A stretch of DNA of 64,000 nucleotides, taken from positions 1-64,000 of the forward strand of contig CASFCH010000065.1 in assembly GCA_949293315.1 (NCBI GenBank), read 5' to 3'. Shown piece after piece: positions 5,293-49,266 of this stretch (the stretch's first letter is position 1; each line of letters starts with the position of its first letter). The notes beneath the pieces were generated by a model that saw only the letters and a program-made list of their open reading frames with translations, had not been told where the DNA came from and did not search any database. The position numbers and the translations under genes were made by a program. Source of the stretch: an uncultured Oscillospiraceae bacterium. GTDB lineage: Bacteria > Bacillota > Clostridia > Oscillospirales > Acutalibacteraceae.

Positions 5293-5296
5293 TAGA

Positions 5297-6940: not shown

Positions 6941-6965
6941 TCAACCAACTCCTTAGTCATACTTA

Positions 6966-7103: not shown

Positions 7104-7144
7104 TTGACAAAACTGTTTTAACTGTATATACTGTACCTATACAG
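7104..7144 (+). promoter_or_regulatory. GntR/ABC operon promoter with inverted-repeat operator
   Basis: TTGACA (7104-7109), 17-bp spacer, TATACT (7127-7132). An inverted repeat CTGTATA / TATACAG (7122-7128 and 7138-7144) covers the -10 box and start site, the usual place for YtrA-type GntR repressor binding. Confidence 0.7.
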
Positions 7145-7166
7145 AAAACATAAGGGAGGCGATTTG

Positions 7167-7538: not shown

Positions 7539-7542
7539 AACG

Positions 7543-8385: not shown

Positions 8386-8386
8386 G

Positions 8387-9019: not shown

Positions 9020-9020
9020 G

Positions 9021-9236
9021 ATGAGCATGGTTATACCGGTTGGTGGTATCAGAAAGAAAATGCTGATTCGGCATTTTCTTGATGTAGGGGCGACATCTCC
9101 TGAGACTGCACAAACATTGCATGACATTGGTGTGTGGAAGGGTATTGGGCTTGTTTTCGATAAATTAGAGCGAAAAGGCATCATAGTTTGTTGCCCGGAC
9201 GGAAGGTATTATATCGACAAAAATAAGATCTCATAA
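9021..9236 (+). CDS. Small winged-helix-like protein
   Basis: 71 residues, one base after the permease stop. The pattern (MLIRHFLDVGATSPETAQTL, then LERKGIIVCCPDGRYYIDKN) looks like a minimal winged helix with a beta wing. Its position at the tail of the exporter operon suggests a regulator of that module. No named family recognised. Confidence 0.65.
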   Translation: MSMVIPVGGIRKKMLIRHFLDVGATSPETAQTLHDIGVWKGIGLVFDKLERKGIIVCCPDGRYYIDKNKIS

Positions 9237-9256
9237 TAAAGGGGTAGAAAAAAGCA

Positions 9257-9445
9257 ATGAGCGATAGATTCAAGATAGCATATTCTCAGAATTCATTTGG
9301 TTCAACGATAGAAATTTTAGTGGACAGGGAAACTGGCGTAAATTATATCTGGAGGCGCTCGTGCAATGCGGGTGGAATGACACCCTTGCTGGGAGCGGAC
9401 GGACGGCCAGTCATTTCGGTAAAGGATGAGTGCGATGAAAAATAA
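9257..9445 (+). CDS. DUF6440-like small protein
   Basis: 62 residues. The pattern FKIAYSQNSFGSTIEILVD, then TGVNYIW and GGMTPLLGADGRP matches what I know of the DUF6440 family: short, beta-rich, found in phages and Firmicutes elements, function unknown. Ribosome site AAAGGGG lies ~15 bp upstream. It overlaps the zinc-ribbon gene by 11 bp. Confidence 0.7.
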   Translation: MSDRFKIAYSQNSFGSTIEILVDRETGVNYIWRRSCNAGGMTPLLGADGRPVISVKDECDEK

Positions 9446-9650
9446 TCATTGTTGTCCTAAATGTGGATCAACAGAGATCAAACGCATTCCTGATAACGGC
9501 AGGTATGCGAGCGGGAATAATATCTATACGACCACAGTTACTTTGTTCGGAAAAATCCCTGTTATCCGCTATGTATGCTGTAACTGCGGTTATGTAGAGA
9601 ACTGGGTAGAAAATCAAGAAGATCTGAATAAAATTCGTAATTCTTTTTAA
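9435..9650 (+). CDS. Small zinc-ribbon protein
   Basis: 71 residues with two CxxC pairs (CCPKCGST near residue 6 and VCCNCGYVENWV near residue 43), enough to bind one zinc. The ATG at 9435 is placed behind AAAGG at 9421; ATG 9426 is too close to it. Members of this kind are usually annotated only as zinc-ribbon domain proteins. The overlap with the DUF6440-like gene implies coupled translation. Confidence 0.7.
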   Translation: MKNNHCCPKCGSTEIKRIPDNGRYASGNNIYTTTVTLFGKIPVIRYVCCNCGYVENWVENQEDLNKIRNSF

Positions 9651-9667
9651 GGAAAGTCGAGAATGAT

Positions 9668-9817
9668 ATGAAGGAAAATGAAATGGTAAACAGCGAGGAA
9701 TTCAATCAACAAAAAAGTGAAGATTCCGTTGATACCGATCCGAACGGAACGATCCATAATGAGGATTTAGATTCGGATGAGGTGGTATCACTCATGATGT
9801 TATTAGGACTCTTATAA
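9668..9817 (+). CDS. Short acidic ORF (49 aa)
   Basis: ATG at 9668 to TAA at 9817. The product is very acidic (many Asp/Glu) and ends in a hydrophobic run, VVSLMMLLGLL. The ribosome site is weak (GGAAAG about 15 bp upstream). It sits at the end of the exporter operon. Plausible as a small gene, but nothing identifies it. Confidence 0.4.
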   Translation: MKENEMVNSEEFNQQKSEDSVDTDPNGTIHNEDLDSDEVVSLMMLLGLL

Positions 9818-9867
9818 CCCGAAAAAGCGGCGATTCAATTGTGCATGGATAAATTCAGCCAAACATC

Positions 9868-9896
9868 TTGCAAAATCAAGTGAAGTCCGCTATAAT
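9868..9896 (+). promoter_or_regulatory. Promoter of the long rightward operon (leader unit C)
   Basis: TTGCAA (9868-9873), 17-bp spacer, TATAAT (9891-9896). It drives the structured leader at 9915-10187 and, past it, the operon that starts at 10,245. Geometry matches the promoters at 24,661 and 35,919, each of which also precedes a hairpin/terminator leader. Confidence 0.75.
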
Positions 9897-9914
9897 AATA
9901 ACATCAGTATCAGT

Positions 9915-10187
9915 AATTGCTTTTTAGCGATTAGAGTTTTCCGGTTACACAGCGTCTGAGAGTATTGGCTTTCAGGCGCTTTTTTTGTTTCTACTGCCTC
10001 TCATCAATAAGAGGCACAGAACCAGTTTCGCGGAGGAGTGGACATTCCGTCCGCCTTTACAATTTAATACTTTGACTCCAATTGAGTCACAAAGGCACTC
10101 AGAGAAAGAAATTTCTTTGGGTGCTTTTTTTATATAGATCTGGAGTCGATACAGGCTCCCCCTATCCTTTGTTCCGGGGAGCCTTTT
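9915..10187 (+). ncRNA. Structured leader with three terminator-like hairpins (unit C)
   Basis: In order: hairpin AATTGCT / AGCGATT (9915-9932); conserved GGTTA linker; terminator AGCGTCTGAGAG / CTTTCAGGCGCT with seven T (9951-9987); small hairpins near 9995-10017, 10030-10054 and 10073-10088; terminator with GCAC / GTGC ends and a T run (10095-10131); terminator AGGCTCCCC / GGGGAGCCT (10153-10187). No ORF occupies 9818-10244. The first two hairpins share architecture with the leaders at 24,707 and 35,965. It probably attenuates or gates transcription of the operon; the trigger is unknown. Confidence 0.7.
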
Positions 10188-10244
10188 GGCTTATCCCGTT
10201 TACATATATAAAATTCAAGCGCTGAGCGCAGAAAGGAAATGTTT

Positions 10245-10586
10245 ATGACGCTATATTTAGACGCAAGAACAAACTGCTCTGACCTGATGGTTGACTTTAT
10301 CGAAGTTCAGCTATCAAACGGAGAGGTCGTATCTCTCAACTGGGATGAAAGCGGAATTGACCGTGATAATGCCGGATTTAGTGCCCGATATAAGGGACTC
10401 TACTTCGATGAAGAGTACGCCGATGGACGGTTAGATGATCTTCGGGAAATGAAGATTCAGACGGTTCAGGTATATACGGAGCTGGGTGTTCCCGTAACAT
10501 TCCAAATTGACGAGATGCTTTTTGTGGATGCAGAAGAAGAGCTTCGGTTCAAATCACCTTCCTATGAAGAACTGGAGGTGGAGTGA
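10245..10586 (+). CDS. Conserved-looking protein of unknown function
   Basis: 113 residues, acidic, alternating beta strands (TLYLDARTNCSDLMVDFIEV, then NGEVVSLNWDESG), no motif I recognise. The ATG at 10,245 lies 7 nt behind GAAAGGA; ATG 10,239 is inside that site and is rejected. First gene after the leader; its stop overlaps the start of the methylase-like gene by 1 bp (TGATG), implying coupled translation. Confidence 0.7.
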   Translation: MTLYLDARTNCSDLMVDFIEVQLSNGEVVSLNWDESGIDRDNAGFSARYKGLYFDEEYADGRLDDLREMKIQTVQVYTELGVPVTFQIDEMLFVDAEEELRFKSPSYEELEVE

Positions 10587-11290
10587 TGGCGGCCAAATTA
10601 CAAAACTCAAAATCTGCGAAAGATGAGTTGCGGGAGGTGATTCGGTCTCTTGGCACAACGATGGGGCTGAACAATGCGTTCACCAAATTTCTGGAACTGA
10701 CCGCCACAGCCTTAGGTGCCGAACTGGATCCTGTCAACGCCAAAGTGCGTGATCAGCAGTATGAAGATGCTCAAAAAGGCTTGAAGCCAGATGAGCTATC
10801 TGAGTTTGCCCGGATGACAGCGCTGATGTGGCTGTCTGTACTCGAACATCAGGAAGAACCGATAGATATCCTTGGAGATATTTATCACAGTCTGCGCCTC
10901 AATAATGAATGGAACGGACAGTTTTTTACTCCGGATGATGTTGCGAGGATGATGGCTATGATCGTTAATCCTGTTTTGGAACAGGGTGATTCCCAAGACT
11001 ATCTGACACTCAATGAACCGACCTGCGGTTCCGGTACGATGGTCATTGCGAGCATTTGGGCAATGAAGAAACACGCCTTCGATTATCGGAATAAAGCCTT
11101 CTTTGTGGCGCAGGACATTGATATCCGCTGTGTGTGGATGGCATATATCCAGCTGACTCTATATCAGATTCCGGCTGTAGTCATCCATAGCAACACACTG
11201 ACGATGGAAGAATGGTCATACTGGTATACGCCATATGCCGCGCCTTTCCTCCTGAAACAGCAAGGTGATGAGATGGAGGTGGCAGGATGA
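10586..11290 (+). CDS. N6-DNA-methylase-like protein lacking the catalytic NPPF/Y motif
   Basis: 234 residues. The helical N-terminus and the segment NGQFFTPDDVARMM, then EPTCGSGTMV (SAM motif I, ~143-152) and AQDIDIRCVWMAYIQLTLY are those of HsdM-like adenine methylases. Where the catalytic NPPF/Y should follow, the protein reads EEWSYWYTPYAAPF and then ends. It may bind SAM and DNA without methylating, or represent a divergent catalytic form. ATG 10,586 overlaps the previous stop; its end overlaps the next gene by 4 bp. Confidence 0.75.
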   Translation: MAAKLQNSKSAKDELREVIRSLGTTMGLNNAFTKFLELTATALGAELDPVNAKVRDQQYEDAQKGLKPDELSEFARMTALMWLSVLEHQEEPIDILGDIYHSLRLNNEWNGQFFTPDDVARMMAMIVNPVLEQGDSQDYLTLNEPTCGSGTMVIASIWAMKKHAFDYRNKAFFVAQDIDIRCVWMAYIQLTLYQIPAVVIHSNTLTMEEWSYWYTPYAAPFLLKQQGDEMEVAG

Positions 11291-11733
11291 ACCGAGAACC
11301 CAATCAAGTTTATCTTGATGTGTCGCTTGCGTTGGCATACGCTGAACTTTTAATGTCAGAAGAACTCAAGCAATCTGTTTGGGAACTGAGGCTTACGGGA
11401 CTGAGGCGGCTGCAGGCGCAGCTGACATATTATGAGAAGCTCGGGTATAACCGATCCCTTTTAGAAGCAATTTCTGAAAAGAAATCGCAGATGATTTTGC
11501 AGGTTTCTTCTCAGACTGAGTTTGACAAGGTGATACGCCCACGAGCGCCGCGTTTTGACGGAAACAAGCTCATTCCGGATGAACATAGCATTCCAGAGGA
11601 AGAACTGATCTGCTGGTGCGAGACATCTCTGCGAGGGCCGCTCAATGAGTATGGATTTCTCCGGTATATGGAAGTGTTTCGGCAGGTATTCCCTGAAAGC
11701 AGCAAAGAAATTGACATGAGGGAAAGCCTATGA
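11287..11733 (+). CDS. Hypothetical protein in the methylase/PP-loop cluster
   Basis: 148 residues. The N-terminal half is helical with heptad-like Leu spacing (LRLTGLRRLQAQLTYYEKLG), the C-terminal half mixed. No family recognised. It is embedded between the methylase-like and PP-loop genes with 4-bp ATGA overlaps on both sides, so it is translated with them and probably acts with one of the two. Confidence 0.7.
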   Translation: MNREPNQVYLDVSLALAYAELLMSEELKQSVWELRLTGLRRLQAQLTYYEKLGYNRSLLEAISEKKSQMILQVSSQTEFDKVIRPRAPRFDGNKLIPDEHSIPEEELICWCETSLRGPLNEYGFLRYMEVFRQVFPESSKEIDMRESL

Positions 11734-12578
11734 AAATTTTGTCCTTTGGAGCCGGAATGCAGTCAACTGCACTCGCTCTTATGAGTTGTGAGAATGTGTT
11801 TGCGAATTCAGACGGTAAGGAATTACCATATCCCCTGGTTCCGATCTACGACATCGTGATTTTCTGCGATTTGGGTTTGGAGCCGGTATGGGTACGCAAG
11901 CAGGCGGATTTTGTCCGCAGAGCCTGTGAAACGGCAGGGATCCGATATAAAGAACTGGATGCTCCGCTGTATCAGGATCTGATGCGTGACTTTGGAAAGA
12001 AGCGTGTTGTCAGTATCCCGTGGTGGACGATTGACGAAAAAGGACATAAATCTAAATTCCCACGCAACTGCACGCTCGATTACAAGGTTCAGGTGATTTC
12101 AAAGTATGTCCGCTGGGAGCTACTTGGATACCAAAAGCACCAGCGGCTGCGCAACGAGGATAAGAAGGCTCACGAGATGCACTTGGGGTTTAGCTTTGAA
12201 GAAAAGAAACGCTGCAAAGAAAGCCCTAATCCAATGTTCGTAAATAAGTTTCCGCTTGTCGATATGAAGCTGGAGCGTAAAGACAACTATGCCTACATTA
12301 AAGATGTGTGGGGACTGGATACGAAGGCATCTGCTTGCTGCTTCTGTCCGTTTCATCGAAACTACTTCTTTGAGCATCTAAAACACAATGAGCCGTCAAC
12401 TTACGGGAAACTGCTCGCTGTGGATAAATTGCTTGAAGAGAATACGCCCAAACCACCGACTGAATCGAAACTGTATATCTCTCGTAGCCGGAAACGACTG
12501 TTGGAGCTTACTGCCGAAGACTGTAACGATGCGGAATGCTTTCTGTATCATGGAAATTCGGTATGGAACGGTTTTTAA
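11730..12578 (+). CDS. PAPS reductase-like PP-loop protein
   Basis: 282 residues. The N-terminal SFGAGMQSTALAL is the PP-loop pyrophosphatase signature (SxGxxS/T) of PAPS reductase and adenine nucleotide alpha hydrolases, which adenylate or split an activated substrate. A Cys-rich segment SACCFCPFHRNYFF (~205-218) could bind zinc or an iron-sulfur cluster. Phage and element homologues are annotated only by fold; a role in base or nucleotide modification is inference. It sits three genes before the DNA ligase, with ATGA overlap to the gene upstream. Confidence 0.8.
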   Translation: MKILSFGAGMQSTALALMSCENVFANSDGKELPYPLVPIYDIVIFCDLGLEPVWVRKQADFVRRACETAGIRYKELDAPLYQDLMRDFGKKRVVSIPWWTIDEKGHKSKFPRNCTLDYKVQVISKYVRWELLGYQKHQRLRNEDKKAHEMHLGFSFEEKKRCKESPNPMFVNKFPLVDMKLERKDNYAYIKDVWGLDTKASACCFCPFHRNYFFEHLKHNEPSTYGKLLAVDKLLEENTPKPPTESKLYISRSRKRLLELTAEDCNDAECFLYHGNSVWNGF

Positions 12579-20704: not shown

Positions 20705-21181
20705 ATGGATAAGAATAGTTTAGCCCATACGAAATGGGAATGCAAGTATCATATCGTATTTGCACCAAAATATAGACGTAAAGAGATTTATAAAAATATA
20801 CGAGCAGATATAGGACGTATATTAAGTGAATTATGCAAAAGAAAAGGGATAGAGATCATAGCGGCGGAAGCCTGTATCGATCACATTCACATGTTTGTGA
20901 GAATACCGCCCAAATATAGTGTATCAGAGATTATGGGATATTTAAAAGGAAAAAGTTCGCTTATGATTTTTGAAAGGCATGCAAATTTAAAATATAAATA
21001 TGGAAATCGTCATTTTTGGTGTAGAGGATATTATGTAGATACAGTAGGGAAAAATGCAAAAAGAATTGAAGAATATATAAGAAATCAATTAAAAGAGGAT
21101 CTGGAATACGACCAAATGACGTTAAAAGAGTATATTGACCCGTTCACGGGTGAGCCGGTAGACCCAAACAAGAGAAAGTAA
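20705..21181 (+). CDS. tnpA: IS200 transposase TnpA (Y1 HUH)
   Basis: 158 residues, full length for IS200 TnpA. The HUH metal motif is HIHMF (~residues 60-64), and the catalytic tyrosine lies in RGYYVDTVG (~residue 117). It moves single-stranded IS copies by cutting at stem-loop ends, preferentially during replication. The ORF is intact; translation is throttled by the hairpin over its ribosome site. Codon use is AT-richer than its neighbours, as expected for a recent insertion. Confidence 0.95.
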   Translation: MDKNSLAHTKWECKYHIVFAPKYRRKEIYKNIRADIGRILSELCKRKGIEIIAAEACIDHIHMFVRIPPKYSVSEIMGYLKGKSSLMIFERHANLKYKYGNRHFWCRGYYVDTVGKNAKRIEEYIRNQLKEDLEYDQMTLKEYIDPFTGEPVDPNKRK

Positions 21182-24866: not shown

Positions 24867-25370
24867 ATGATTAAAACCGTAGTAACAGAAGCCATCATTT
24901 CCAAAGGTTATGAGGGCGCAGACGCAATCAAAATCATCCAGGGTGAAAAGGGTGACATCGCCAGGTTCCGTATCGGCACAAAGGTGTACGATCCGAAAGC
25001 AGATGGCAACAGCCGTTGGTTCAATCTTTCGGTCAAGGCTTTTAACAGTGTATGTGAGCGCATAAAAAAGATGCAGCTCAAGGACGGAGCCTACATCAAC
25101 CTGAGTGGCAGACTGGATGAAGAAAGCTGGGAAGATCCCAACACGCACGAGAAGAAAAAAGCAATTGTTCTGATTGCGGATGAGGTAGAATACTGCTACG
25201 CCGGTAACAACGGCGCCAATAAGCAGAATACCGAATCTGGTAGTCAGGCAGCAGCCCAGCAGACACCTGCCCCGGCACAGAATCAGGCTCCCGCAAATAC
25301 AGCTTCTGCCCAGGCAGAGGGATTTACAGGCTTTGAAGCCTTTGGCGGGCAGAATGCTTTCTTTGGGTAA
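24867..25370 (+). CDS. Single-stranded DNA-binding (SSB-like) protein
   Basis: 167 residues. The N-terminal ~105 residues have the OB-fold order of strands with KVYDPKADGNSRWFNLSVKA and YINLSGRLDEESWED, followed by a Gln/Ala/Pro-rich flexible tail and a short C-terminal end GGQNAFFG that stands where the acidic DDDIPF tip of housekeeping SSB would be. It should coat ssDNA during element replication or transfer. First gene behind the unit A leader; closed by a strong terminator, though some read-through into the downstream cluster is possible. Confidence 0.75.
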   Translation: MIKTVVTEAIISKGYEGADAIKIIQGEKGDIARFRIGTKVYDPKADGNSRWFNLSVKAFNSVCERIKKMQLKDGAYINLSGRLDEESWEDPNTHEKKKAIVLIADEVEYCYAGNNGANKQNTESGSQAAAQQTPAPAQNQAPANTASAQAEGFTGFEAFGGQNAFFG

Positions 25371-25479: not shown

Positions 25480-26256
25480 ATGAATCAAAAAGAATTCAAA
25501 CGGCGAATGGCATATGAGGTGCTTATCATCCTGGGAATGCTGGCGCTGCTTACATTCATCTGCCGCTTATGGCCCATTCTGCTTCTTATCATTCTTGGAA
25601 TTTTTATCGCAGCCATTCGACTGCTGTTTCTCTCGTCCAAGAAAGTGGAAGTGATTGAGCCGATGCCGCAGCTTCCGGAACCTGTAAAGGAACCAACGGA
25701 GCGTGATGTCAGGGAACTCGCCTACGCTGTCATACTCAAACGAATTACGGAGCTTGTCACGGATGAGTATCCGGACGCAAGATGGGTCTGGGAGAATCCG
25801 AATGCAAAGCAATGTATCCAAAACGGCGAAGAGGTATATGTCCTGCTTAATCGAGCCGGTGGATACCGAAGGGCGAAGGTTGTTATCGCAAATCTTCAGG
25901 TGCTGGGCATAAAGTATTGCTCGGCTGAGGAAGGGGATACGCCTGAAAATCAGGAGCTGGATACAGAGGAGCCAGAAGAAACGGATGTTTCTGAAAGTCC
26001 TGGAGATTCCGAACCTGAGGAAGAACGCCCTGTCAACTATGAATTGCTGGCGTATGAATGGACTGAAGCGCACATTGTTGAATTAAACGCTCGCTGTAAC
26101 GAGGCAATTGCTGAGGGAAAAGAGAGCGTGCTGCTAACCGCAGAGGAACTGCCGGTAAAAGAAAGCTGGCCGGATATCTGTAATGAACTGATTCGCGCCG
26201 GTATCGAAAATGCTGTTTGTCAGGACGCCGGCATTCAAATCAATCTCACGCACTGA
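25480..26256 (+). CDS. Membrane-anchored protein of unknown function
   Basis: 258 residues. Two N-terminal membrane helices within residues ~12-52, then a helical domain (~70-150), an acidic disordered linker (many Glu/Asp, ~155-190) and a C-terminal helical domain. GAAAGGA precedes the ATG. It is the first gene of the cluster containing the AAA+ and VWA genes; placement suggests a membrane partner for them, but this is inference. Confidence 0.65.
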   Translation: MNQKEFKRRMAYEVLIILGMLALLTFICRLWPILLLIILGIFIAAIRLLFLSSKKVEVIEPMPQLPEPVKEPTERDVRELAYAVILKRITELVTDEYPDARWVWENPNAKQCIQNGEEVYVLLNRAGGYRRAKVVIANLQVLGIKYCSAEEGDTPENQELDTEEPEETDVSESPGDSEPEEERPVNYELLAYEWTEAHIVELNARCNEAIAEGKESVLLTAEELPVKESWPDICNELIRAGIENAVCQDAGIQINLTH

Positions 26257-26281: not shown

Positions 26282-28153
26282 ATGAGTTCAATTAAAATTT
26301 TTGATTACTCCCGCACCCTGCCATCCCCTTTTGATACCTTGAAAAGCAAGAAAATCAAGGTATCGTCAACCTATGGAGACGGTACGGAGGCAACGCTGAG
26401 TGGATCTGTCATCAAGGCAGTCCACTCGATGATCCGGTATATGGAAGCAATGTCGGAAGGCGCTGTCGGTACACGCGATAATCTGTGTATTGCCGAATAC
26501 AAATCTGCGGTAAGTCCAGACGCTTATCATCTTGTGATTTATAACAAAGCAACCGGAGCTTTGATGGCGTCTGTGTATGACAAAAGCGTGGAAACCTTTG
26601 AGCAGTATTTGGTTGGAAAGAATGGTCGCGACGGCGCGGCCATTTTGACGGCTATGATGCCGGCGTTGCTGGAAGATGAGGAATTCAATTCGCATTTTTT
26701 GAGCTATAAGGATCATATGGATAATGGTTATCCGGACCTGGATGCCGCAACGGAGGATATGGCGGTTCTTTGCGATAACGCATATCGCAGGGTCAAAGAT
26801 GAAACCTGTGCGGCACATCTCAAGGTGAGTATTGATAAAGCTGGTAATGTGCTGAATATCTCATCTACCCAGCTGGATTCCGGCAATTATGAGCCAACGG
26901 ATGTAGTTGCAGGTGAGTTTACGATTTTTGCCAGCACGCCCCGAGTCACCGTAAAAAAAGCGGTAGAAACGGTTGCGCATAGCAATTTTGTTGGCAAATA
27001 TCCGCTGGATCCGAGCCGAAAGCTATCTGCGCTGGAGCAGTCACTCGTACCGCAGTTGCCATCCTGGTATATCATCCCGGAAGAGGTGGTAGATATCTGT
27101 AAGCACGCCAGTATCACGACCGGTAAACCAACGCAGATGCGTAATTTCTTGCTTCGCGGTCCTGCCGGAACCGGTAAGACAATGGGTGCAAAAGCGATTG
27201 CCGCAGGGTTGAATCTGCCGTATATGAAGTACACCTGTTCGGCCGGCACAGAGATTTTCGATTTTATCGGAATGATCTTCCCCGAGACTGATTCGGTTTC
27301 TACGGGAGATGCGGAGCTGGACAAAGAGAAGGAAGCGCTGAAAGCAATGGGTGGTATTAACTATGCCAATGTAGCGAAGCTGATGCACTTGCCCGATCTT
27401 GACGATATGGATTATGATCCCGCAGGTGTATATCAGACGCTGACAGGCAAAGAAAAAGAAGACGCTACAGCACAGGATTGTATGGCGCTTGTACTCGAAA
27501 AGGTTACGGACAAAGTCCAGCAGCTCAGCCGTCGTGCGGAAGACGAGCAGTCCAAAGGCCAGACCTATACTTATGTGGAGACCGATTTTATCAAAGCGCT
27601 GAAATACGGTTATGTGATTGAAATTCAGGAACCCACCACCATTATGCAGCCCGGTGTACTGGTCGGACTGAACTCGATGCTGGAGCAAACGGGTTCAATC
27701 ACGCTGCCGACAGGAGAAATCATCAACCGTCATCCGGATGCGGTCGTAGTGGTCACAACCAATGTTACTTATGAAGGATGCCGGGGGCTTAATCAGTCAG
27801 TTATCGACAGAATGAGTCTGGTACATGATGTTGAATTGCCGAGTCCTGAGATTATGGCAGAGCGTGCGATGAGCGTTACCGGCTTTGACGATGATTATCA
27901 GGTTGCCAAAATGGTACAAGTAGTCAACGATATGTCGGAATATATGCGAAAGAACGGTATCACAGACGGTTCGTGCGGTATGCGAAGCTTGATTGACTGG
28001 ATTATCAGCACGGACATTACAGGGGATGCCTACACATCGGCGCTATATACCATTATCAGCAAGGCAACTTCTGACGAGGAGGACAGAGAGGCGCTTAAAG
28101 TCTCGGTTTTGGAACCGATTTTCCCACCGACAAGAAGGAAATCGGCTGTATAA
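26282..28153 (+). CDS. AAA+ ATPase of MoxR/CobS-like type
   Basis: 623 residues. The N-terminal ~270 residues are unique; the ATPase core has Walker A GPAGTGKT (~297), a pore-like segment GTEIFDFIGMIFPE, VGLNSMLEQTGSI after the Walker B region, VVVTTNVTYEGCRGLNQSVI with sensor and Arg features, and a helical lid. MoxR/CobS ATPases work with VWA partners as chaperone or insertase pairs, and the next gene, 29 bp downstream, encodes exactly such a partner. Phages and elements carry similar CobS/CobT-like pairs of unknown purpose. Confidence 0.85.
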   Translation: MSSIKIFDYSRTLPSPFDTLKSKKIKVSSTYGDGTEATLSGSVIKAVHSMIRYMEAMSEGAVGTRDNLCIAEYKSAVSPDAYHLVIYNKATGALMASVYDKSVETFEQYLVGKNGRDGAAILTAMMPALLEDEEFNSHFLSYKDHMDNGYPDLDAATEDMAVLCDNAYRRVKDETCAAHLKVSIDKAGNVLNISSTQLDSGNYEPTDVVAGEFTIFASTPRVTVKKAVETVAHSNFVGKYPLDPSRKLSALEQSLVPQLPSWYIIPEEVVDICKHASITTGKPTQMRNFLLRGPAGTGKTMGAKAIAAGLNLPYMKYTCSAGTEIFDFIGMIFPETDSVSTGDAELDKEKEALKAMGGINYANVAKLMHLPDLDDMDYDPAGVYQTLTGKEKEDATAQDCMALVLEKVTDKVQQLSRRAEDEQSKGQTYTYVETDFIKALKYGYVIEIQEPTTIMQPGVLVGLNSMLEQTGSITLPTGEIINRHPDAVVVVTTNVTYEGCRGLNQSVIDRMSLVHDVELPSPEIMAERAMSVTGFDDDYQVAKMVQVVNDMSEYMRKNGITDGSCGMRSLIDWIISTDITGDAYTSALYTIISKATSDEEDREALKVSVLEPIFPPTRRKSAV

Positions 28154-28182
28154 AATTCTGTTGAAAGGAGGATACCCTATCA

Positions 28183-30477
28183 ATGGCAAGGGTGAATCAC
28201 AAAAAAGTCAAGCAGATGCTTGAAGAAACGCGAAAAAAAATTTCCGACCGTCAATTCTTCACTTCCCGCATTCTTGCGGGGCATTATGAAGATATGGCGG
28301 CCGCACAAACAAGGCGGTATAAGTACAACCGCCGTATTAAAATGAGGATTATTTGGAAGCCGAGAGACCAGTCTATCGCGGTAACAAACAATCTGAAGAT
28401 CTTGATCAATGCGGGGCATCCGATTGTGACCAAACGAAATCGCCTTCGTCAGGATCGATATATGATTGTGACGGGGTTGTTTGCGCACGAACTGGGACAC
28501 GCCCTGTTTACGGATTTTTTGGCAAGTCAAACCTACACGAACTTCCTTGCTGCCTATAAGTGGTATCCTGCGCCGCCTGCTTTCAAAAGCAGTGCGGATG
28601 TCCGCAGGGAAAAATCGCTTTGGGAATATGCCAAAAGGGATCAAAGCAGTTTGGAGGCTTTACAGTATCTGGCGCATCATATTGGGAATATCATTGAAGA
28701 CGGATATATCGAGAGCCGAATGCTGAATCAGTTTCCCGGTACGCTCGGTCAAAGCCTTGAATTTCTCAGAACACAGTTTTTTGAGGATCAGCCGACGGTC
28801 ACGCAGCTTATCGAAGCAGAGGAGGATGAAGAACATCCCTCTCACATCTTTGAGAGCATTATGCAGATTATGCTCTGTTATGTAAAATTCGGTGAGATCA
28901 AGTATGGCGAGGAGTCGCTCTCTGATGAGCGTATTCAGGCCATATTCGATCTGATTCCTGAGCTTGACAGCGCGTTGCTCAATTCCAGCGGAAAGGAACG
29001 GTGGACAACGGTAAGCACTGTTCTTGTCCGTTGCTGGGATTACATCGAAAGTTACATTGACAGGATAAAAGAGCAGATAGAGGCTGAAAAGAAAGCCGGC
29101 AACGAAAGCTCTGCTTCCGGCGTTTTATCGAAACGGCTTGGCTCTATGGCCGGCAGCTCAGAAGAAGGCAGCGGAGACAGTACACCTGTTCCCGGTGCTG
29201 GACCCGCGCCAGGTAAGGCATCCAATGCCGCAGGTCGTGCAGCGACAAGAGCACTTGCAGCAAATGGATCCTCGGAAGAACCCGAAGATTCTGAAGAAGG
29301 ATCTACAGGTGCAGACGATTCTGAGTCTGAGGAGGATTCGGAGGAAGAAGGCGCTGGTAGTAGTCCGCAGGGAGACGAAGATACTGCTGATGGTTATGCA
29401 ACGGGTAGTATCGGGGGTGGAAAGCAGGAAACGACTGACAAAGAAGGCGGAAGAATTCCGTATCATCAGACCGAAAGTGCTTATGCTCCCGAAGGTGGCG
29501 AGATCTCTTATGATAAAGACTACCAACGGGAAAATTATGACCGCGCAGCTTCAGATATTGAGAGGCTGCTTGAAAAGATGGCAGAAAAAGAGGCTTGCAA
29601 GGACTTGGAAAACGAGAGGCTTCGTGAACTGAATGAAGCTGCACAAAACATTTCCTATGGAGATATTCATTCTGGTGTTGCCATTCAAGTTCATAGAATC
29701 ACGGATGTAGACAGGGACCTGGAAACCCAGTATGAGGAAATCTCCGCTCCCCTGCTTGCTATCTCCAAGAAATTGCAAAAAAGCATCAAACAAGAACTGA
29801 AAGACTCTCAGCGAGGCGGAAAGCAAACCGGTCTCGTTATGGGACGCCGTCTGGACGCGCACGCTCTGTGCAGAAATGACGGCAAGGTGTTCTATAAGAA
29901 TGCTCTTCCTAACGATATACCGCAGCTTTCTGTTGCACTTTTGCTGGATGAGTCCGGATCGATGGCCTGCGGAGACCGAGCAACCTATGCAAGAGCCGCA
30001 GCCATTATCCTCTATGATTTCTGTCAGGAGCTGGACATCCCGATTATGGTATATGGTCATTCAACCGGTTATAGCACAGGCGTTGACCTGTACTCCTATG
30101 CCGAGTTTGAAAGCTTTGACCGTGATGATAAATACCGTATGATGGATATTTCAGCACGAGGAAGCAATCGCGACGGTGCTGCTCTGCGGTTTGTTGCGGA
30201 ACAACTCAGCAAACGCACAGAAGAGATTCGGCTGTTAATCCTGATATCGGATGGTCAGCCGGCAGACTGGGGTTACAGTGGTACTGCAGCTGAGGAAGAT
30301 CTCCGAGGCATCAAGCAGGAATACCGCCGTAAAGGTCTGATCTTCGTTGCTGCTGCTATCGGTGACGATAAGGAAAACATTGAACGCATTTATGGAGATT
30401 CCTTTATGGACATCTCAGATTTGAATCAGCTGCCCGTTAAGTTGGCCGCTACACTAAAGCGGTACATACGGGTATAA
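28183..30477 (+). CDS. VWA-domain protein with N-terminal HExxH metalloprotease-like motif
   Basis: 764 residues. Residues ~95-180 contain FAHELGHALFTDF (HExxH, His102/Glu103/His106) and NIIEDGYIESRM about 65 residues later, which could supply the third zinc ligand as in gluzincins. A low-complexity acidic Ser/Gly/Glu region follows (~320-430), then the CobT-like VWA domain at the C-terminus with the MIDAS motif LLDESGSM (~588), NRDGAA and ISDGQP. The AAA+ gene upstream is its expected partner. Whether the zinc site is catalytic is unknown; the geometry suggests a protease or former protease delivered by an AAA+ machine. Confidence 0.85.
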   Translation: MARVNHKKVKQMLEETRKKISDRQFFTSRILAGHYEDMAAAQTRRYKYNRRIKMRIIWKPRDQSIAVTNNLKILINAGHPIVTKRNRLRQDRYMIVTGLFAHELGHALFTDFLASQTYTNFLAAYKWYPAPPAFKSSADVRREKSLWEYAKRDQSSLEALQYLAHHIGNIIEDGYIESRMLNQFPGTLGQSLEFLRTQFFEDQPTVTQLIEAEEDEEHPSHIFESIMQIMLCYVKFGEIKYGEESLSDERIQAIFDLIPELDSALLNSSGKERWTTVSTVLVRCWDYIESYIDRIKEQIEAEKKAGNESSASGVLSKRLGSMAGSSEEGSGDSTPVPGAGPAPGKASNAAGRAATRALAANGSSEEPEDSEEGSTGADDSESEEDSEEEGAGSSPQGDEDTADGYATGSIGGGKQETTDKEGGRIPYHQTESAYAPEGGEISYDKDYQRENYDRAASDIERLLEKMAEKEACKDLENERLRELNEAAQNISYGDIHSGVAIQVHRITDVDRDLETQYEEISAPLLAISKKLQKSIKQELKDSQRGGKQTGLVMGRRLDAHALCRNDGKVFYKNALPNDIPQLSVALLLDESGSMACGDRATYARAAAIILYDFCQELDIPIMVYGHSTGYSTGVDLYSYAEFESFDRDDKYRMMDISARGSNRDGAALRFVAEQLSKRTEEIRLLILISDGQPADWGYSGTAAEEDLRGIKQEYRRKGLIFVAAAIGDDKENIERIYGDSFMDISDLNQLPVKLAATLKRYIRV

Positions 30478-31680: not shown

Positions 31681-32559
31681 ATGATAATCAATCAACCAGG
31701 AGCAGAGTTTATTTATGAGAATGTCTGCTATAAAATCGGTGAAAGAATCGTCGGAACAAATGCCAGCGAATACCAAGGACTTTTTGGGTCTATCATTGAA
31801 ATCCGCGATGGTGAGGATAAGGAAACCGAAAACGAAACACCGGATATTTATTGTTCGTTTGATGAACCGGTTATTCCTTATGACATTGCAGAACTGGAAG
31901 AAAGGTTTTCAGAGCTTTATCAATGCAAAAAAACGATTGAGGATATCATTTTGGATGAAGTCATTATGGCACCGGAGATGATTGAATCAATCGAACAGGC
32001 AGATAAGCAGCTGACAAAACTTGATATCTATCTTGTTTCGGAGGATTGGGCAGTAAAAGGCGAGACTGGTTATTCCGTAATCCCCTGCGCAGATTATTAC
32101 ACAGCCAAACGAATTCTGTGTGAAAAATTGGCAGAGGAACAGCGGACAGGTTGTATTCCGATGTGGGATGGCAAGGAAAAATTCCAAATCGAGTCAAGCC
32201 CCTCTTTTTACGAATGCTGGCTGGACGGCGAATATCTGATGAATCATTACAAGATAGTCTTGGTACATGAGACTCTTTTGCTGTCTCCAGAAACGGTGGG
32301 ACTTATTGGCCGCTGCTATATGGATCAGTGTCGTATTGAAGATTTTGAGGCCCAGATTGAAGAATGGGACGAAGTATCTTCTCTTACCGATGAACAGTAC
32401 CAACGCCTTTGCGCGGATCCAGAAATCCCTGAACGCATTCAGAAAGCGCTTGGACGGAATGACTCCTACTGGGAAAGTTATTGGGAAACGGTTTCGGAAG
32501 TGGCGCACATCATTGTCAGAAAATATCTGAAAGAAAATAAGGAGGCTGAGGCAAAATGA
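31681..32559 (+). CDS. Hypothetical protein, 292 aa
   Basis: Start ATG 31,681 behind AAGGAGG; a longer frame lies over the previous gene. The N-terminal 60 residues resemble a short SH3-like barrel (GERIVGTNASEYQGLFGSII, acidic), the rest is helical. No family recognised. Overlaps the PQ-loop gene by 4 bp. Confidence 0.65.
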   Translation: MIINQPGAEFIYENVCYKIGERIVGTNASEYQGLFGSIIEIRDGEDKETENETPDIYCSFDEPVIPYDIAELEERFSELYQCKKTIEDIILDEVIMAPEMIESIEQADKQLTKLDIYLVSEDWAVKGETGYSVIPCADYYTAKRILCEKLAEEQRTGCIPMWDGKEKFQIESSPSFYECWLDGEYLMNHYKIVLVHETLLLSPETVGLIGRCYMDQCRIEDFEAQIEEWDEVSSLTDEQYQRLCADPEIPERIQKALGRNDSYWESYWETVSEVAHIIVRKYLKENKEAEAK

Positions 32560-33053
32560 CATTTTTTGATTACTTACAGCTGCTGGGCGGTTTTATTTTG
32601 GCGCTTGGGTATATCCCGCAGATCATACAAATTATCACAACGCATTCCTGCAGGGACCTGAATCTGAGAACATACCTTGCAATGGTGCTTGGAATCGGCT
32701 TGATGGAGGTCTATGCGATAAATCTTGTGCTGAATGAAAGCGGTTCGATGTTTCTGATTACGAACAGCGTATCACTGCTGCTTGTGATTTTCATCTGCCT
32801 GCTGATTATAGCAATGAGAAAGACCAAAACAGGCGCAGCAGAAAAAGAAGCTCTCTATGTCTCAAGATGGGATGATGGTTCTGTTATCATTACGCCCTGC
32901 AAGGTGAATTCCAGAACAAAACGGATTTACGACATTCAGTCCTGCCCGTTCAGCCCTAATGGCTGTCTGGAAGAAGAGAGCATTATTATTGGCGATGAGG
33001 AATATCCAGTGCGGCACGAAGATGTGCTGAAGGATGACTATCACATCGCATAA
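32556..33053 (+). CDS. PQ-loop (SemiSWEET-like) membrane protein with C-terminal extension
   Basis: 165 residues. The first ~88 are a three-helix PQ-loop unit: LGGFILALGYIPQIIQI with the PQ motif, followed by two more helices. SemiSWEETs of this size dimerise to move sugars. The last ~75 residues are a soluble beta domain (ALYVSRWDDGSVIITPCKVN) not found in ordinary SemiSWEETs. Its substrate and reason for sitting between hypothetical and methylase genes are unknown. Ribosome site AAGGAGG. Confidence 0.75.
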   Translation: MTFFDYLQLLGGFILALGYIPQIIQIITTHSCRDLNLRTYLAMVLGIGLMEVYAINLVLNESGSMFLITNSVSLLLVIFICLLIIAMRKTKTGAAEKEALYVSRWDDGSVIITPCKVNSRTKRIYDIQSCPFSPNGCLEEESIIIGDEEYPVRHEDVLKDDYHIA

Positions 33054-36148: not shown

Positions 36149-37291
36149 ATGCAAAAACAATGTGAAGACAACTTCTACACAACCTTCAGTTCTGCGTTAA
36201 TGCTGCAGGACTACCATGACACGCAGGCGAAAAACAGCCGGTGGTATCGCTGCCAGGTCAACGAACTGCAGGTAGAGCCGCTGGACAGTAATTCACCCCT
36301 CTATAGTGATATTACGAAGTTCGCTGCCGGTGTCACACAAGACGCTGTCACAGATACAGCGGAAAATCTGGGCATTGCCATACGGGTCGATGGGCAATAC
36401 TATCCCGTTCGTATGACAGCCTATAAAAGCCTTTTGGACAGGGCAAAAATCGGCGGTACGGCGCTACCCAAACTCAGCCGAAAGGTGCTGGCGGAGGTTC
36501 TGAACGAATGCCTCCACTTATTTTCGTCTGAGGCACTGCTTTTGATTCGCGATGAAAAGGTATCGGCGGTTCATTCCGGTGACTCATCGGATTACTCGGT
36601 TTTACCGATTAACGAGCTGCTTGCTGTGCTGACTAAGAAACTGGATGAAAGATTCCCGGGCAATGAATTTGAGTCTGGGTACAGCGATCATTCCGTTTCC
36701 AGCGCTGCATGGATCCTGCCAAATCAGCGAGAAGAATTGATCGGCACCTATACCAAGATGCTCATAGCAGAAGGTAAAGCTAAAATGGCGAGCAAGCTGA
36801 TGCCGGGCATTCGGTTTACCACATCCGATACCGGTGTGGCCTCTGCTAAAGTGACCGCATTCTTGAGCGGTATGCGCTATCCGTTCCACATTGGAAGCTG
36901 CATTGCCGTGGATCATCGGCATCAGAAGAAAGTCGAGGATTTTGAGGCGGCTCTCGATCAGTTGTTTGCGCAATTTGGCGACACAGTGAAGAAGCTGGAA
37001 AGCCTGATGGATATCACACTGGAGTATCCGGTCAATGCAATGACTCGTATTTGCAAGAAACTCAGTCTGCCGAAGAAAGCAGCACTTGAGGCGATTGCAA
37101 TGTTCGAGATGTCCTATGGCGGCGGAACGGCGACAGCGCACGATGTTTTTATGGCCCTTCAGGAGATTCCGTTCAGCCTGAAAGCGCAGAATACACCGGA
37201 AGGAAAGATGCTGGTCATAGAGGAAAATATGGCTCGCGTCCTGACATTACGGTGGAGCGATTATGATCTGGCAAAGGCGGTGAATTACTGA
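36149..37291 (+). CDS. Protein of unknown function at the head of the recombination cluster
   Basis: 380 residues, no signal or membrane segments. Contains SEALLLIRDEKVSAVHSGDS, SSAAWILPNQREELIGTY and FTTSDTGVASAKVTAFL; the overall pattern recalls DUF932-type proteins that accompany YqaJ nucleases in elements and phages, but I cannot assign it firmly. AGAAAGGAG precedes the ATG. The stop overlaps the YqaJ gene start by 1 bp. Confidence 0.65.
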   Translation: MQKQCEDNFYTTFSSALMLQDYHDTQAKNSRWYRCQVNELQVEPLDSNSPLYSDITKFAAGVTQDAVTDTAENLGIAIRVDGQYYPVRMTAYKSLLDRAKIGGTALPKLSRKVLAEVLNECLHLFSSEALLLIRDEKVSAVHSGDSSDYSVLPINELLAVLTKKLDERFPGNEFESGYSDHSVSSAAWILPNQREELIGTYTKMLIAEGKAKMASKLMPGIRFTTSDTGVASAKVTAFLSGMRYPFHIGSCIAVDHRHQKKVEDFEAALDQLFAQFGDTVKKLESLMDITLEYPVNAMTRICKKLSLPKKAALEAIAMFEMSYGGGTATAHDVFMALQEIPFSLKAQNTPEGKMLVIEENMARVLTLRWSDYDLAKAVNY

Positions 37292-38325
37292 TGGCAGCTC
37301 CTATTTTATTATGTGATACTGCTGGAATGGACAATGACCGCTGGCTTGAGTGCAGAATGCACGGACCGGACGGAAAGATTCCTTATACAGTCGGAGGCAG
37401 TGATGTGTCGGCTATTTTCGGAGTTAGTCCGTGGACAACGCCGTTAGAACTGTGGATGATTAAAAAAGGAAAAATGAAACCTCCTGTCAAAGCAAATTCC
37501 AGTCAGCTTGAAATGGGACATCTGTTAGAACCTATTGCGGCGTACTGGTATGAAAAGAAGAGCGGCAATACCGTTTATGAAGATACTGGTCTTTATCAGC
37601 ACGCTGACCATCCCTATGCTTTGGCAAACTTCGACCGCAGGTTTATTCGCGCAGAAGATAACGAGCCAGGGATTTTGGAGTGTAAAAGCTGTACCTACCA
37701 TAAGGCAGGTGACTGGGCGGATGACGCTATTCCTATCTATTATGAGCTGCAGCTGCGTTTCTACTTGGGCGTAGCAGATGTGAAAATCGGCGCATTTTCA
37801 GCCCTATGGGGAAACAATCCGGATAATGACCTTGCGATTCCATCCATCGAAAGGGATCAGGCCAAAGAGGATCTGATTTTTGAGCGCTTAGATGAATGGA
37901 TTTGGAGCTTGGAACATGATAAACCGCCTACGATGAGCACTGTTAAACCAAAGCTGGCTTTGGAATCGCTCGCGAGGATTTACGGCGCAAGCAGTCCGAC
38001 CCTTCCTACCATTGAACTGCCTCGGAAATTGGAAAAGCAGGTCAAACGCATTGCTGCCTTACAAGATCAGATTGCTGATCGAAAAGCAGAAATCAAAACT
38101 TATGAAAAGGAGATTGAGGCACATACTGTGCGAATTGCAGAATTGATGAAGGCTCACGAACATGGATTTCTTGAGACCACGACGGATAAATATCTCATTG
38201 ATTTTGCCACTAAAACAAGCCACAGAACCGATACGAAAGCGCTCAAGGAGAAATATCCTGGCATCTATCAGGATGTTCAGAAAACCTCCGAAAGCCGCAA
38301 GCTGACGGTTACAAAGACGGTATAA
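37291..38325 (+). CDS. YqaJ-family exonuclease
   Basis: 344 residues. The viral recombinase YqaJ (lambda-exonuclease-like) core is seen in the first ~215: VGGSDVSAIFGVSPWTTPLE, the acidic QLEMGHLLEPIAAYWYEKKSG region, NFDRR and the PD-(D/E)xK end ILECKS, then QLRFYLGV. It resects DNA ends to leave 3' tails for annealing. The C-terminal third is a coiled coil followed by a small domain. It usually works with an annealing protein; the 42,068 gene is the best candidate here. Confidence 0.88.
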   Translation: MAAPILLCDTAGMDNDRWLECRMHGPDGKIPYTVGGSDVSAIFGVSPWTTPLELWMIKKGKMKPPVKANSSQLEMGHLLEPIAAYWYEKKSGNTVYEDTGLYQHADHPYALANFDRRFIRAEDNEPGILECKSCTYHKAGDWADDAIPIYYELQLRFYLGVADVKIGAFSALWGNNPDNDLAIPSIERDQAKEDLIFERLDEWIWSLEHDKPPTMSTVKPKLALESLARIYGASSPTLPTIELPRKLEKQVKRIAALQDQIADRKAEIKTYEKEIEAHTVRIAELMKAHEHGFLETTTDKYLIDFATKTSHRTDTKALKEKYPGIYQDVQKTSESRKLTVTKTV

Positions 38326-44078: not shown

Positions 44079-44999
44079 ATGATTATTGCAATTGATCACG
44101 GCAATTACGCCATAAAAACCCTCAACCATTCTTTTGTTGCGGGACTTTCCGAGCATACAGTAAAACCGCCGATGACCGATGAAATAATGGAATACGACGG
44201 AAGATTTTGGACGCTTACCGGCAACCGACTCTCCTATATGCGCGATAAGACACAGGATGAGCGGTACTTTATTCTTACACTGTTTGCGATTGCCAAAGAA
44301 CTGGAAAGCACCGGACGGCTGTCTGCTTTTGAACCCATTGACCTTGCGGTTGGTCTTCCGCCAGAACATTACGGCATACTGAAGAACAAGTTTGCTCAGT
44401 ATTTCAAGCGGACAGGCACGGTCAATTTTGTTTACAAAGACAATCCTGTCAGCATTATTATCCGCAATGTGTGCGTTTATCCTCAGGCATATGCAGCGGT
44501 TGTACCGTATGCTGGGAAACTCCTCAGCACGCTGATGATGTTTGTTGTAGATATCGGAGGATACACTACGGATGTGTTGCTTCTCAGAAATGGCAAACCG
44601 GATTTACAGTTCTGCCGCAGCCTGGAGCTGGGCGTCATCACAATGAATAATGATATCATTCGCAGAGTTGGTGCTTTGCACGATATGAAGATCGAGGACG
44701 AGCATATCAGTGCTGTGCTGCGTGGTAAAGAAACATTTTTGCCGGAGGATGTGATACAAACAATTACGAAAGCTACAGAGACACATACCAGAGACATCCT
44801 GCATAAGCTTCGCGAGTTGCAGGTAGATCTAAGAGCGAATCCGGCAATGTTTATCGGAGGCGGTTCTATTCTTTTTGAAGATTATATCAAGGCGTCTAAC
44901 CTTGTTAGCAAAGCGGATTTCATTGAAGATCCCAAAGCGAATGCCATAGGATATCAGATGCTTGCCTCCAAACAGTTAGGTTATCGCCCGACAGCATAA
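44079..44999 (+). CDS. parM: ParM/StbA-like actin-family partition ATPase
   Basis: 306 residues with actin-fold motifs: phosphate 1 IAIDHGNYAIKT (residues 3-14), phosphate 2 FVVDIGGYTTDVLLL (~residue 160) and adenosine motif MFIGGGSILF (~262). ParM-type proteins form filaments that push apart plasmid copies. It is followed 16 bp later by a ParR-like gene, giving a type II partition operon. GGAGG precedes the ATG. Partition genes are expected on plasmids and point to a maintained circular form of this integrated element. Confidence 0.85.
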   Translation: MIIAIDHGNYAIKTLNHSFVAGLSEHTVKPPMTDEIMEYDGRFWTLTGNRLSYMRDKTQDERYFILTLFAIAKELESTGRLSAFEPIDLAVGLPPEHYGILKNKFAQYFKRTGTVNFVYKDNPVSIIIRNVCVYPQAYAAVVPYAGKLLSTLMMFVVDIGGYTTDVLLLRNGKPDLQFCRSLELGVITMNNDIIRRVGALHDMKIEDEHISAVLRGKETFLPEDVIQTITKATETHTRDILHKLRELQVDLRANPAMFIGGGSILFEDYIKASNLVSKADFIEDPKANAIGYQMLASKQLGYRPTA

Positions 45000-47613: not shown

Positions 47614-49266
47614 ATGATCAATCAGAAGGTGCAGCAGTATAATGCTGCTATTTATCTGAGACTATCCAAAGAGGATATGGACTCTGCTCAAAAAGCGGAG
47701 AGCAATAGCATTGTAAATCAAAAACAGCTTATTTTGGGCTTTTTACAGGATAAGCCTGATATTAAGGTTGTATCTATAAGAATAGACGATGGATATACTG
47801 GGACGAATTTTGATCGCCCACAGTTTCAGCTGATGATGGATGACATCAAGGCTGGGCTCATTAACTGTGTGGTGGTCAAGGATTTGTCCCGTTTTGGGCG
47901 TGAGTACATTAACGCCGGAAAGTATATTGATCGTCTATTTCTTTATAATGGCATAAGGCTGATTGCGATCAATGATGGGATTGATACCATCACAAGGACG
48001 CAGTCTGACGAACTGAATATTACCCTGAAGAATTTAATCAATGACAGCTACTGCCGTGATATGTCAATTAAAGTGCGCAGCCATCTACAGGTCAAAAGGA
48101 AGAATGGCGAATATATCGGTGCCTTTACCCCATTCGGCTATCGTAAAGCAGAAAATGATCACAATCAGCTGGAGATTGACGATTATGCTGCATCTGTCGT
48201 AGAGGATATATTCCGATGGAAATTGGAAGGCATGAGTCAGGATGGCATTGCAAAAAGGCTGACGGCAGATGGCGTTCTTTCTCCGATGGAATATAAGAAG
48301 AGCCAGGGTGAGCGGTTCAAAACCGGTTTTGAGACTGGAAAGCAGACACAGTGGACATCGGTTGCTGTTCGCAGGATATTGACGAATCCCGTGTATATCG
48401 GCACCTTGATCCAAGGAATCCGTACAAAACCAAATTATAAAATCAATACGGTTATTGTGAATGATGAGGACAAATGGGTTAAGGTTGAGAATGCCCACAA
48501 ACCGATTGTATCAGAGCGGATTTTTAATCTTGTGCAAAGACTTTTGCTGCTGGACACACGAACTTCACCCAAGGAAAAGGTTGTGCATCCATTGGCCGGG
48601 CTGGTTATTTGCGGAGACTGTAAAGGTCCGATGGTTAAGACATCGACCAGTTCTGGTGGCAAAAAGTATTGCTACTATATTTGTGATACTAACAAAAAGC
48701 ACAAAGGCTGTACCAGCAGTCATAGAATTTCCGAAAGTGATTTGGAGCAAACTGTCTTGATTCTGCTCAGAGAGCATATCCGTATGGTGTGTGAGTTGGA
48801 TTCCTGCTTAGAAGTAATCCGAAAGGTTCCGTTCCAAAAGATAAAGCTAAAGAAAGTTCAGGAACGGCAATTGAAGATAGAGGAAGAATTGGAACGGTAT
48901 CGCAGGCTTAAACTTTCGCTCTATGAGGATATGAAAGATGGTCTTATCTCGAAAGAGGACTATGTGGATATCAAAGCGCAGTATGATGAGCGTATTGCCT
49001 CTCAGAAACAGGCATATGATCAGGCGCAAAAGGAAATTGATATGTACTTGGACGACAACTCCAAACCGCATCAGTGGATACAGGAGTTTATGGAGCATCG
49101 CAATATAACAGAACTTACGCGGATGGTCGCTGTTGAATGTATTGATGAAATTGCAATCTATGAGGATCGAAAGATCGAGGTTTCATTCACTCATTGGCAA
49201 GACTACTCGGCATTATCTGAACAAGTGCGAGAGTATTATCAGGAAAATCATAAGGAGGTTGTATAA
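47614..49266 (+). CDS. Large serine recombinase 1
   Basis: 550 residues. Resolvase catalytic domain with YLRLSKED (Ser18) and VVKDLSRFGREYI, a Recombinase domain (GAFTPFGYRKAEND onward), a zinc ribbon (VICGDCKGPM to HKGC) and a coiled-coil insert (~395-470). First of three consecutive integrase-like genes; its TAA shares a base with the next ATG. An extended -10 (TGCTACAAT, ~47,528-47,536) and AAAGGAGTG precede it. Any of the three could perform integration in spoVAC; triplets of such recombinases are known from some streptococcal integrative elements. Confidence 0.95.
   Translation: MINQKVQQYNAAIYLRLSKEDMDSAQKAESNSIVNQKQLILGFLQDKPDIKVVSIRIDDGYTGTNFDRPQFQLMMDDIKAGLINCVVVKDLSRFGREYINAGKYIDRLFLYNGIRLIAINDGIDTITRTQSDELNITLKNLINDSYCRDMSIKVRSHLQVKRKNGEYIGAFTPFGYRKAENDHNQLEIDDYAASVVEDIFRWKLEGMSQDGIAKRLTADGVLSPMEYKKSQGERFKTGFETGKQTQWTSVAVRRILTNPVYIGTLIQGIRTKPNYKINTVIVNDEDKWVKVENAHKPIVSERIFNLVQRLLLLDTRTSPKEKVVHPLAGLVICGDCKGPMVKTSTSSGGKKYCYYICDTNKKHKGCTSSHRISESDLEQTVLILLREHIRMVCELDSCLEVIRKVPFQKIKLKKVQERQLKIEEELERYRRLKLSLYEDMKDGLISKEDYVDIKAQYDERIASQKQAYDQAQKEIDMYLDDNSKPHQWIQEFMEHRNITELTRMVAVECIDEIAIYEDRKIEVSFTHWQDYSALSEQVREYYQENHKEVV

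Follow-up and report, generated by a model that had tools for sequence, protein, structure and literature searches.

A 64,000-nucleotide stretch of DNA from an uncultured Oscillospiraceae bacterium (contig CASFCH010000065.1; the whole stretch is called the window here) carries, within an integrated mobile element, two adjacent genes at positions 26282 to 30477 of the plus strand. The first encodes a MoxR-type AAA+ ATPase and the second a CobT-like von Willebrand factor A (VWA) protein, whose N-terminal region, or head, contains an HExxH motif. We propose, with a probability of about one-half, that the two proteins form an ATP-driven MoxR-VWA protein-remodelling machine with a probable gluzincin head, at work in the module of large mobile elements that deals with single-stranded DNA (ssDNA) and recombination. 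This reading builds on the gene pair itself, its co-conservation, the conservation of its motifs, the predicted folds, and the gene neighborhood, all of which are shown here.

Architecture of the gene pair

The VWA protein (764 amino acids; positions 28183 to 30477) consists of three parts: the head (residues 1 to 310; positions 28183 to 29112), an acidic, low-complexity linker with weak conservation in the alignment (approximately residues 311 to 480; positions 29113 to 29622), and a C-terminal VWA/CobT_C domain (approximately residues 584 to 752; positions 29932 to 30438). The C-terminal domain matched the Pfam families VWA (residues 584 to 736; E value of 5.9e-6, above the cut-off) and CobT_C (residues 655 to 752; E value of 9.4e-9). 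Its metal-dependent adhesion site (MIDAS) motif, DESGS, spans residues 589 to 593 (positions 29947 to 29961) and is conserved together with D664 and D690. The head harbors HELGH at residues 102 to 106 (positions 28486 to 28500), a predicted metal-binding and catalytic motif, and NIIEDGYIE at residues 169 to 177 (positions 28687 to 28713), in which E172 or D173 is the predicted third ligand. A first-pass annotation of the window had described a MoxR/CobS-type ATPase next to a CobT/VWA protein, with HELGH at residue 102, a possible third ligand near residue 172, and an acidic linker leading to the VWA domain; all of these features were found in the two open reading frames (ORFs). The ORFs are separated by 29 bases, and an AGGAGG ribosome-binding site lies at about positions 28166 to 28171, ahead of the ATG of the VWA gene.

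The ATPase (623 amino acids; positions 26282 to 28153) matched the CobS-like family PHROG 249 with an E value of 1.7e-20, and the fold of its AAA module was closest to CbbQ (Z score of 23.6) and NorQ (22.3), with an overall range of 19 to 24 for CbbQ/NorQ structures and 14.8 for the next fold. Its N-terminal domain (approximately residues 1 to 248; positions 26282 to 27025), predicted to contain strands at residues 60 to 108 and then helices at residues 119 to 172, had no Pfam or NCBIfam match above the cut-off. The Walker A motif, GPAGTGKT, is formed by residues 293 to 300 (positions 27158 to 27181), and G293, G298, and K299 were invariant in 55 homologues, as were E447, Q449, and E450 of the Walker B motif, VIEIQEP (residues 445 to 451; positions 27614 to 27634). 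The latter motif reads E-x-Q-E in place of x-x-D-E, with Gln at the usual Asp position. The canonical Asp-Glu, which is common to AAA+ proteins rather than specific to MoxR, is thus absent from this ATPase; nevertheless, we place it with MoxR because its fold and other motifs agree. The form E-[IVL]-Q-E-P was present in nearly all loci. With Gln in place of Asp, hydrolysis is possibly altered. Among more distant plasmid ATPases, those of Ruminococcus albus and Alkaliphilus have E-E at this site and that of Alkalihalophilus has A-E, while the pCAR1 and IncHI ATPases have the usual D-E. The Enterococcus faecium plasmid p114-2 encodes a natural 742-amino-acid single-chain AAA-VWA fusion (locus L006, positions 8609 to 10837) with the Walker B motif LLEIQEP and without the HExxH head. 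A second candidate fusion, this one including the HExxH head (locus L058, positions 8447 to 12010), was rejected and read as a likely decayed copy in which the ATPase and VWA genes became joined in frame, since the ATPase lid is deleted at the junction and the start of Walker A is altered.

Phage and plasmid relatives of the pair are often annotated as cobaltochelatase, and such a function has been suggested for viruses (PMC8651126). However, the CobS and CobT equivalog models gave only 23.4 and 14.1 bits against cut-offs of 558.6 and 759.1, and no CobN match was found among the flanking ORFs scanned. A true CobS/CobT pair for cobalamin synthesis is therefore very unlikely.

Conservation of the head motifs

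To read the HExxH motif against chance, it may be noted that it was present in 459 of 20,000 shuffles of the 764-residue VWA protein. A chance occurrence is nevertheless unlikely for the window protein, given that the motif columns are conserved among intact homologues in Clostridia and the motifs recur beyond them. The homologues were gathered from bacterial genomes (78 loci) and viral contigs (33 loci). For this comparison, homologues were aligned on the window VWA protein, and HExxH was not a selection criterion. The bacterial scan used two patterns, NxxEDxxIE and MIDAS, so that NxxEDxxIE is slightly favored among the loci and HExxH is not. In a separate alignment (A3), the seemingly invariant columns are biased because its sequences were chosen for containing the motifs.

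As seen in the alignment, H102, E103, H106, N169, E172, D173, and E177, together with the MIDAS residues, were kept by all intact Clostridia homologues (approximately 70), and the exceptions within this clade were truncated or split ORFs. E172, D173, and E177 are all conserved, so either E172 or a D173 supported by E177 could supply the third ligand; in one plasmid relative, Leu takes the place of E172. HExxH and NxxEDxxIE also occur together in relatives of low identity from phages and plasmids. On an R. albus plasmid, the two motifs read HEVGH and NIIEDTSIE. Environmental tailed phages fell into two groups: about 15 keep HEKLH with NxxEDxxIE, and others (e.g., L093, L095, L097, and L098) have lost both.

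Predicted fold of the head

Next, the head was modeled with AlphaFold2 from 72 sequences (predicted local distance difference test score of 93.9; predicted template modeling score of 0.88). In the model, three strands are followed by the HExxH helix (residues 89 to 109), and a later helix (residues 154 to 183) bears NxxEDxxIE. When compared with the PDB, the first 39 rows were nearly all HExxH zincins, mostly gluzincins, including selecase, jannalysin, BepA, Wss1, ZMPSTE24, DPP III, BlaR1, IRAP, and thermolysin; selecase ranked at the top (Z score of 7.0), and BepA, Wss1, and ZMPSTE24 scored 6.3, 6.1, and 6.0. Minigluzincins and M48 peptidases (selecase, jannalysin, and BepA) are therefore the nearest solved folds, although these, unlike the window head, are not coupled to AAA+ and VWA partners. 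Because the Z values are middling and the Foldseek match was not significant, the zincin class rests on the uniformity of this neighbor list. The first-pass annotation had proposed looking for a zincin fold in this region, and a zincin-like fold is tentatively supported at these middling scores; the head is read as a probable, gluzincin-like metallopeptidase. Matching viral models were VWA proteins of haloarchaeal tailed viruses and Gordonia phages. The Pfam "putative metallopeptidase" DUF2201_N/DUF2201 (PF13203) likewise combines an N-terminal HExxH with a C-terminal VWA-like domain; the window proteins had no Pfam match to PF13203 up to an E value of 1, and the profile comparison of the head with DUF2201 was weak (13 to 40% probability).

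The conserved motif might also bind metal in a head that does not cut. In that case, HExxH would be a metal-handling or structural site, and the pair would be a chaperone that inserts a cofactor or changes a conformation in the manner of NorQ-NorD or CobS-CobT, both of which resemble the window pair in having a MoxR ATPase, a partner with a C-terminal VWA domain, and a flexible linker. NorQD twists its target to insert iron (PMC13036017), CobST functions in the insertion of cobalt, and, among solved structures, CobT and NorD are the closest by sequence to the VWA domain of the window. Moreover, a VWA protein of Bacillus velezensis has retained LLEDIRIEE and PG but has no HExxH (48% probability in profile comparison) and is perhaps a degenerate form of the head. 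On the other hand, Glu103 is conserved as strictly as both His residues, beyond what metal binding alone would require. The NorD-like heads tested, including that of Rhizobium NorD, had no profile similarity to the window head and lack HExxH; NorD and CobT were not on the list of 1,000 chains compared with the head, an absence that carries little weight. The same was observed for chromosomal VWA proteins of the Clostridia hosts, from the same genomes, in which the head's motifs are absent and no similarity to the head was found. We consider a non-cutting head unlikely, although it deserves serious weight.

Gene neighborhood in Clostridia

In Clostridia, the gene order is a single-stranded DNA-binding protein (SSB), a probable membrane protein of 250 to 300 amino acids, the ATPase, and the VWA protein. 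In 61 of 66 loci, the VWA gene is immediately preceded by that of the ATPase; in 53 of these 66 loci, an SSB gene is found no more than 5 kb upstream of the pair. In the window, the SSB gene of this cluster (positions 24867 to 25370, plus strand) matched SSB models with E values of 9.4e-8 (below the curated cut-off) and 1.3e-5. It is followed by the gene for a probable membrane-anchored protein of 258 amino acids (positions 25480 to 26256, plus strand), which has no Pfam family match and whose cluster is found just upstream of the ATPase in 56 loci. The element of the window also encodes a YqaJ/lambda-exonuclease family protein (positions 37291 to 38325, plus strand; Pfam E value of 1e-28), and such elements repeatedly contain genes for a ligase, a RecD2-type helicase, a YqaJ exonuclease, an actin-like protein, and a sortase. 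The earlier view that the pair belongs to a mobile element is borne out.

In a complete genome, one such element encodes a type IV secretion system (T4SS) coupling protein, a VirB4-like ATPase, E- and F-type proteins of the type II secretion system, a thioester surface protein, and a tyrosine integrase, with the T4SS and pilus-type genes upstream of the pair. Where contigs were long, most genomes had a T4SS coupling protein at a distance of 10 to 80 kb from the pair. In the genome of the window itself, a search for the relaxase family PF03432 found none and the sole T4SS coupling protein is on another contig, so that the window's element cannot be called conjugative on this evidence.

The location on a mobile element would also suit a host-takeover, defence, or counter-defence system that cuts host or rival proteins, and MoxR-VWA cores accompanied by peptidases have been described in predicted conflict systems (PMC7159879). 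However, the pair is part of a fixed core gene set with constant neighbors, not variable cargo. In addition, the VWA protein had no PADLOC match, the ATPase had only short P-loop matches, and no VMAP-type third gene was detected by Pfam among the flanking ORFs. Such a role seems improbable to us.

Other features of the element were also observed. An IS200-type Y1 transposase is encoded at positions 20705 to 21181 (Pfam E value of 8.6e-40), a PQ-loop/SemiSWEET-like small membrane protein with an additional C-terminal region at positions 32556 to 33053, and a ParM/Alp-type actin-like protein, with a homologue in the CE91-St61 element, at positions 44079 to 44999. Positions 47614 to 52563 hold three successive long ORFs, of which the first, the only one family-tested, is a large serine recombinase; they lie directly before spoVAD at position 52771, and the recombinase probably marks the right end of the element. 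In about 50 Lachnospiraceae-type loci, the VWA gene is followed by a member of a 230-amino-acid family without a Pfam match (e.g., locus L061, positions 1751 to 2443).

Relatives on plasmids and in phages

The search for other HExxH-VWA proteins and their neighbors, which the first-pass annotation had suggested, found many, so the machine is not unique to the window's element. MoxR and VWA genes of plasmid pCAR1 (ORF101/103) have been described as conserved in R478, Rts1, SXT, and R391 (PMC2642839), and we therefore compared the heads of plasmid VWA proteins; the likeness of the latter four elements is taken from that paper, which reports AAA+ and VWA only, and not from their sequences. The VWA proteins of pCAR1 (IncP-7), IncC, IncHI-like, pAQU1, and Methylophaga plasmids all have HExxH, followed after a few residues by TD or SD, then by an NxxEDxRIE-type motif (IMEDIRME in Methylophaga), and finally by PGT or PGA. 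The joint profile of these five proteins matched the window head with 99.0% probability (hhalign; E value of 2e-18), and the pCAR1, IncC, IncHI-like, and pAQU1 heads matched it singly with 97 to 98%. Using the pCAR1 VWA protein, tblastn found relatives on 1,145 plasmids, 965 of them typed as conjugative, with HExxH checked directly in the above five plasmids only. They are annotated as NorD, CobT, VWA, or hypothetical proteins.

In three of these plasmids, recombination genes and a DUF3150 gene lie next to or between the genes of the pair. The order is AAA-hyp-ssb-bet-exo-DUF3150-VWA in IncC, ssb-recT-exo-hyp-MoxR-DUF3150-VWA in IncHI-like plasmids, and AAA-hyp-bet-exo-DUF3150-VWA in pAQU1, whereas in pCAR1 ssb, recT, and exo are about 10 kb beyond the pair. 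In the IncC locus (L155, positions 2792 to 10785), the AAA and HExxH-VWA genes bracket ssb-bet-exo-DUF3150, and the annotation of the VWA protein says no more than "VWA domain-containing." Two plasmid relatives adjoin DNA topoisomerases of type IA or another type. The pCAR1-type pair thus shares the head of the window pair and lies by or near recombination genes; it differs in its shorter ATPase, its DE Walker B motif (at least in pCAR1 and IncHI), and its extra DUF3150 gene.

Bacteroides phage BS162P1 and an Alkaliphilus plasmid were also related to the window head (98% each by profile comparison). A viral contig scan with the single window protein gave no matches, but the alignment as query did find relatives. 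In phages, Holliday junction resolvases, a DNA ligase, DNA polymerases, and Hsp20 were encoded near the pair; the 25 commonest neighbor families included none for heads or tails.

In group 2.2 jumbo phages, a MoxR AAA+ protein has been described next to a vWA protein whose N-terminal domain is a metallopeptidase, with virion assembly and peptidolysis as proposed roles (PMC7824862). The stated architecture is the same as that of the window pair, the likeness being one of description; phage Atu_ph07 was considered as the source of the cited protein and rejected, as the accessions did not fit. The combination had thus already been named, and the conjugative-element version would be a variant of it that lies beside SSB and recombination genes. 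In the open-licence literature, we found no description of this head in conjugative elements.

By extension from the jumbo phages, the pair might process or assemble components of a virion or of the transfer machinery (pilus or T4SS), and the coupling protein near several Clostridia relatives and the T4SS and pilus-type genes of the complete element would agree with this. Nevertheless, the pair occurs in elements without virion genes, and the composition of the phage neighborhood speaks mildly against virion assembly. As for transfer, a deletion of s060 to s073 in SXT reduced it more than 100-fold, mostly through s063, whose own loss lowered it 100-fold, while deletions of bet, exo, s067, s068, and s070, in the region of SXT equivalent to the surroundings of the pair, cost at most 10-fold (PMC2791158). 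In pAQU1, the s063 homologue is CDS 091, a hypothetical protein, while CobS is CDS 096 and the VWA protein is CDS 102 (PMC4036041). Because CDS 091 is a different protein, s063 was rejected as the ATPase or VWA gene; judging from gene order, s067 and s068 would include the DUF3150 and VWA genes. These data make such a processing or assembly role rather unlikely. They also give no particular support to the earlier suggestion that the machine acts on host or transfer proteins, given the ssDNA and recombination neighbors in three kinds of element. The observations agree better with a part in maintenance or repair than with an essential one in transfer.

Proposed mechanism and implications

We therefore return to the remodelling machine with a gluzincin-type head. 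In this model, the AAA+ protein would form a ring, on which the VWA domain would dock while holding a target through its metal-dependent adhesion site. Ring formation and docking are proposed by analogy with the solved NorQ-NorD complex, in which a finger of the VWA protein is docked in the MoxR pore and a long linker leads to the N-terminal domain (PMC13036017). By the same analogy, the ATPase would rotate or pull on the VWA domain, thereby extending the linker and shifting the bound target relative to the head, which, carried on the same chain and presumably binding zinc, may cut or clip it. Since the neighbors are SSB, annealing protein, exonuclease, ligase, resolvase, polymerase, and topoisomerase genes, the targets may be on DNA intermediates; the likeliest would be SSB/recombinase complexes, or proteins trapped on DNA as the element replicates, transfers, or recombines.

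Several points weigh against this reading. The Z scores of the head do not exceed 7.0, and Foldseek alone found no PDB match to it with an E value below 0.001 (best, 0.7); the zinc site and cleavage are predicted from the model and the motifs. The protease-like head on the VWA partner of an AAA+ motor, as the first-pass annotation phrased it, hence stands as to conservation and predicted fold, while its protease-like character is a prediction. That the ATPase hydrolyzes ATP despite the Gln in its Walker B motif is likewise presumed, and the neighborhood points to the target indirectly. Moreover, AAA-VWA machines can evidently do without HExxH, since the motif is missing from the E. faecium fusion and from several CobT-like relatives in phages.

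A more specific version is tentative, and we hold it to be doubtful in its full form. The MoxR ring, VWA clamp, and gluzincin head would constitute an ATP-powered metalloprotease, a shared core of the recombination modules of phages and of unrelated conjugative elements (Clostridia, IncC, IncHI-like, and IncP-7), that clears or trims proteins on DNA intermediates in a role comparable to that of SPRTN/Wss1 with p97.

Relatives of the VWA protein occur on more than 1,000 plasmids, mostly typed as conjugative and including the IncC group. The predicted metallopeptidase site makes genes without an assigned function in SXT/IncC-type recombination modules testable by a single point mutation. If the proposal is true, the pair would add a coupling of AAA+ motor and protease to those already known, such as FtsH, Lon, and Clp.

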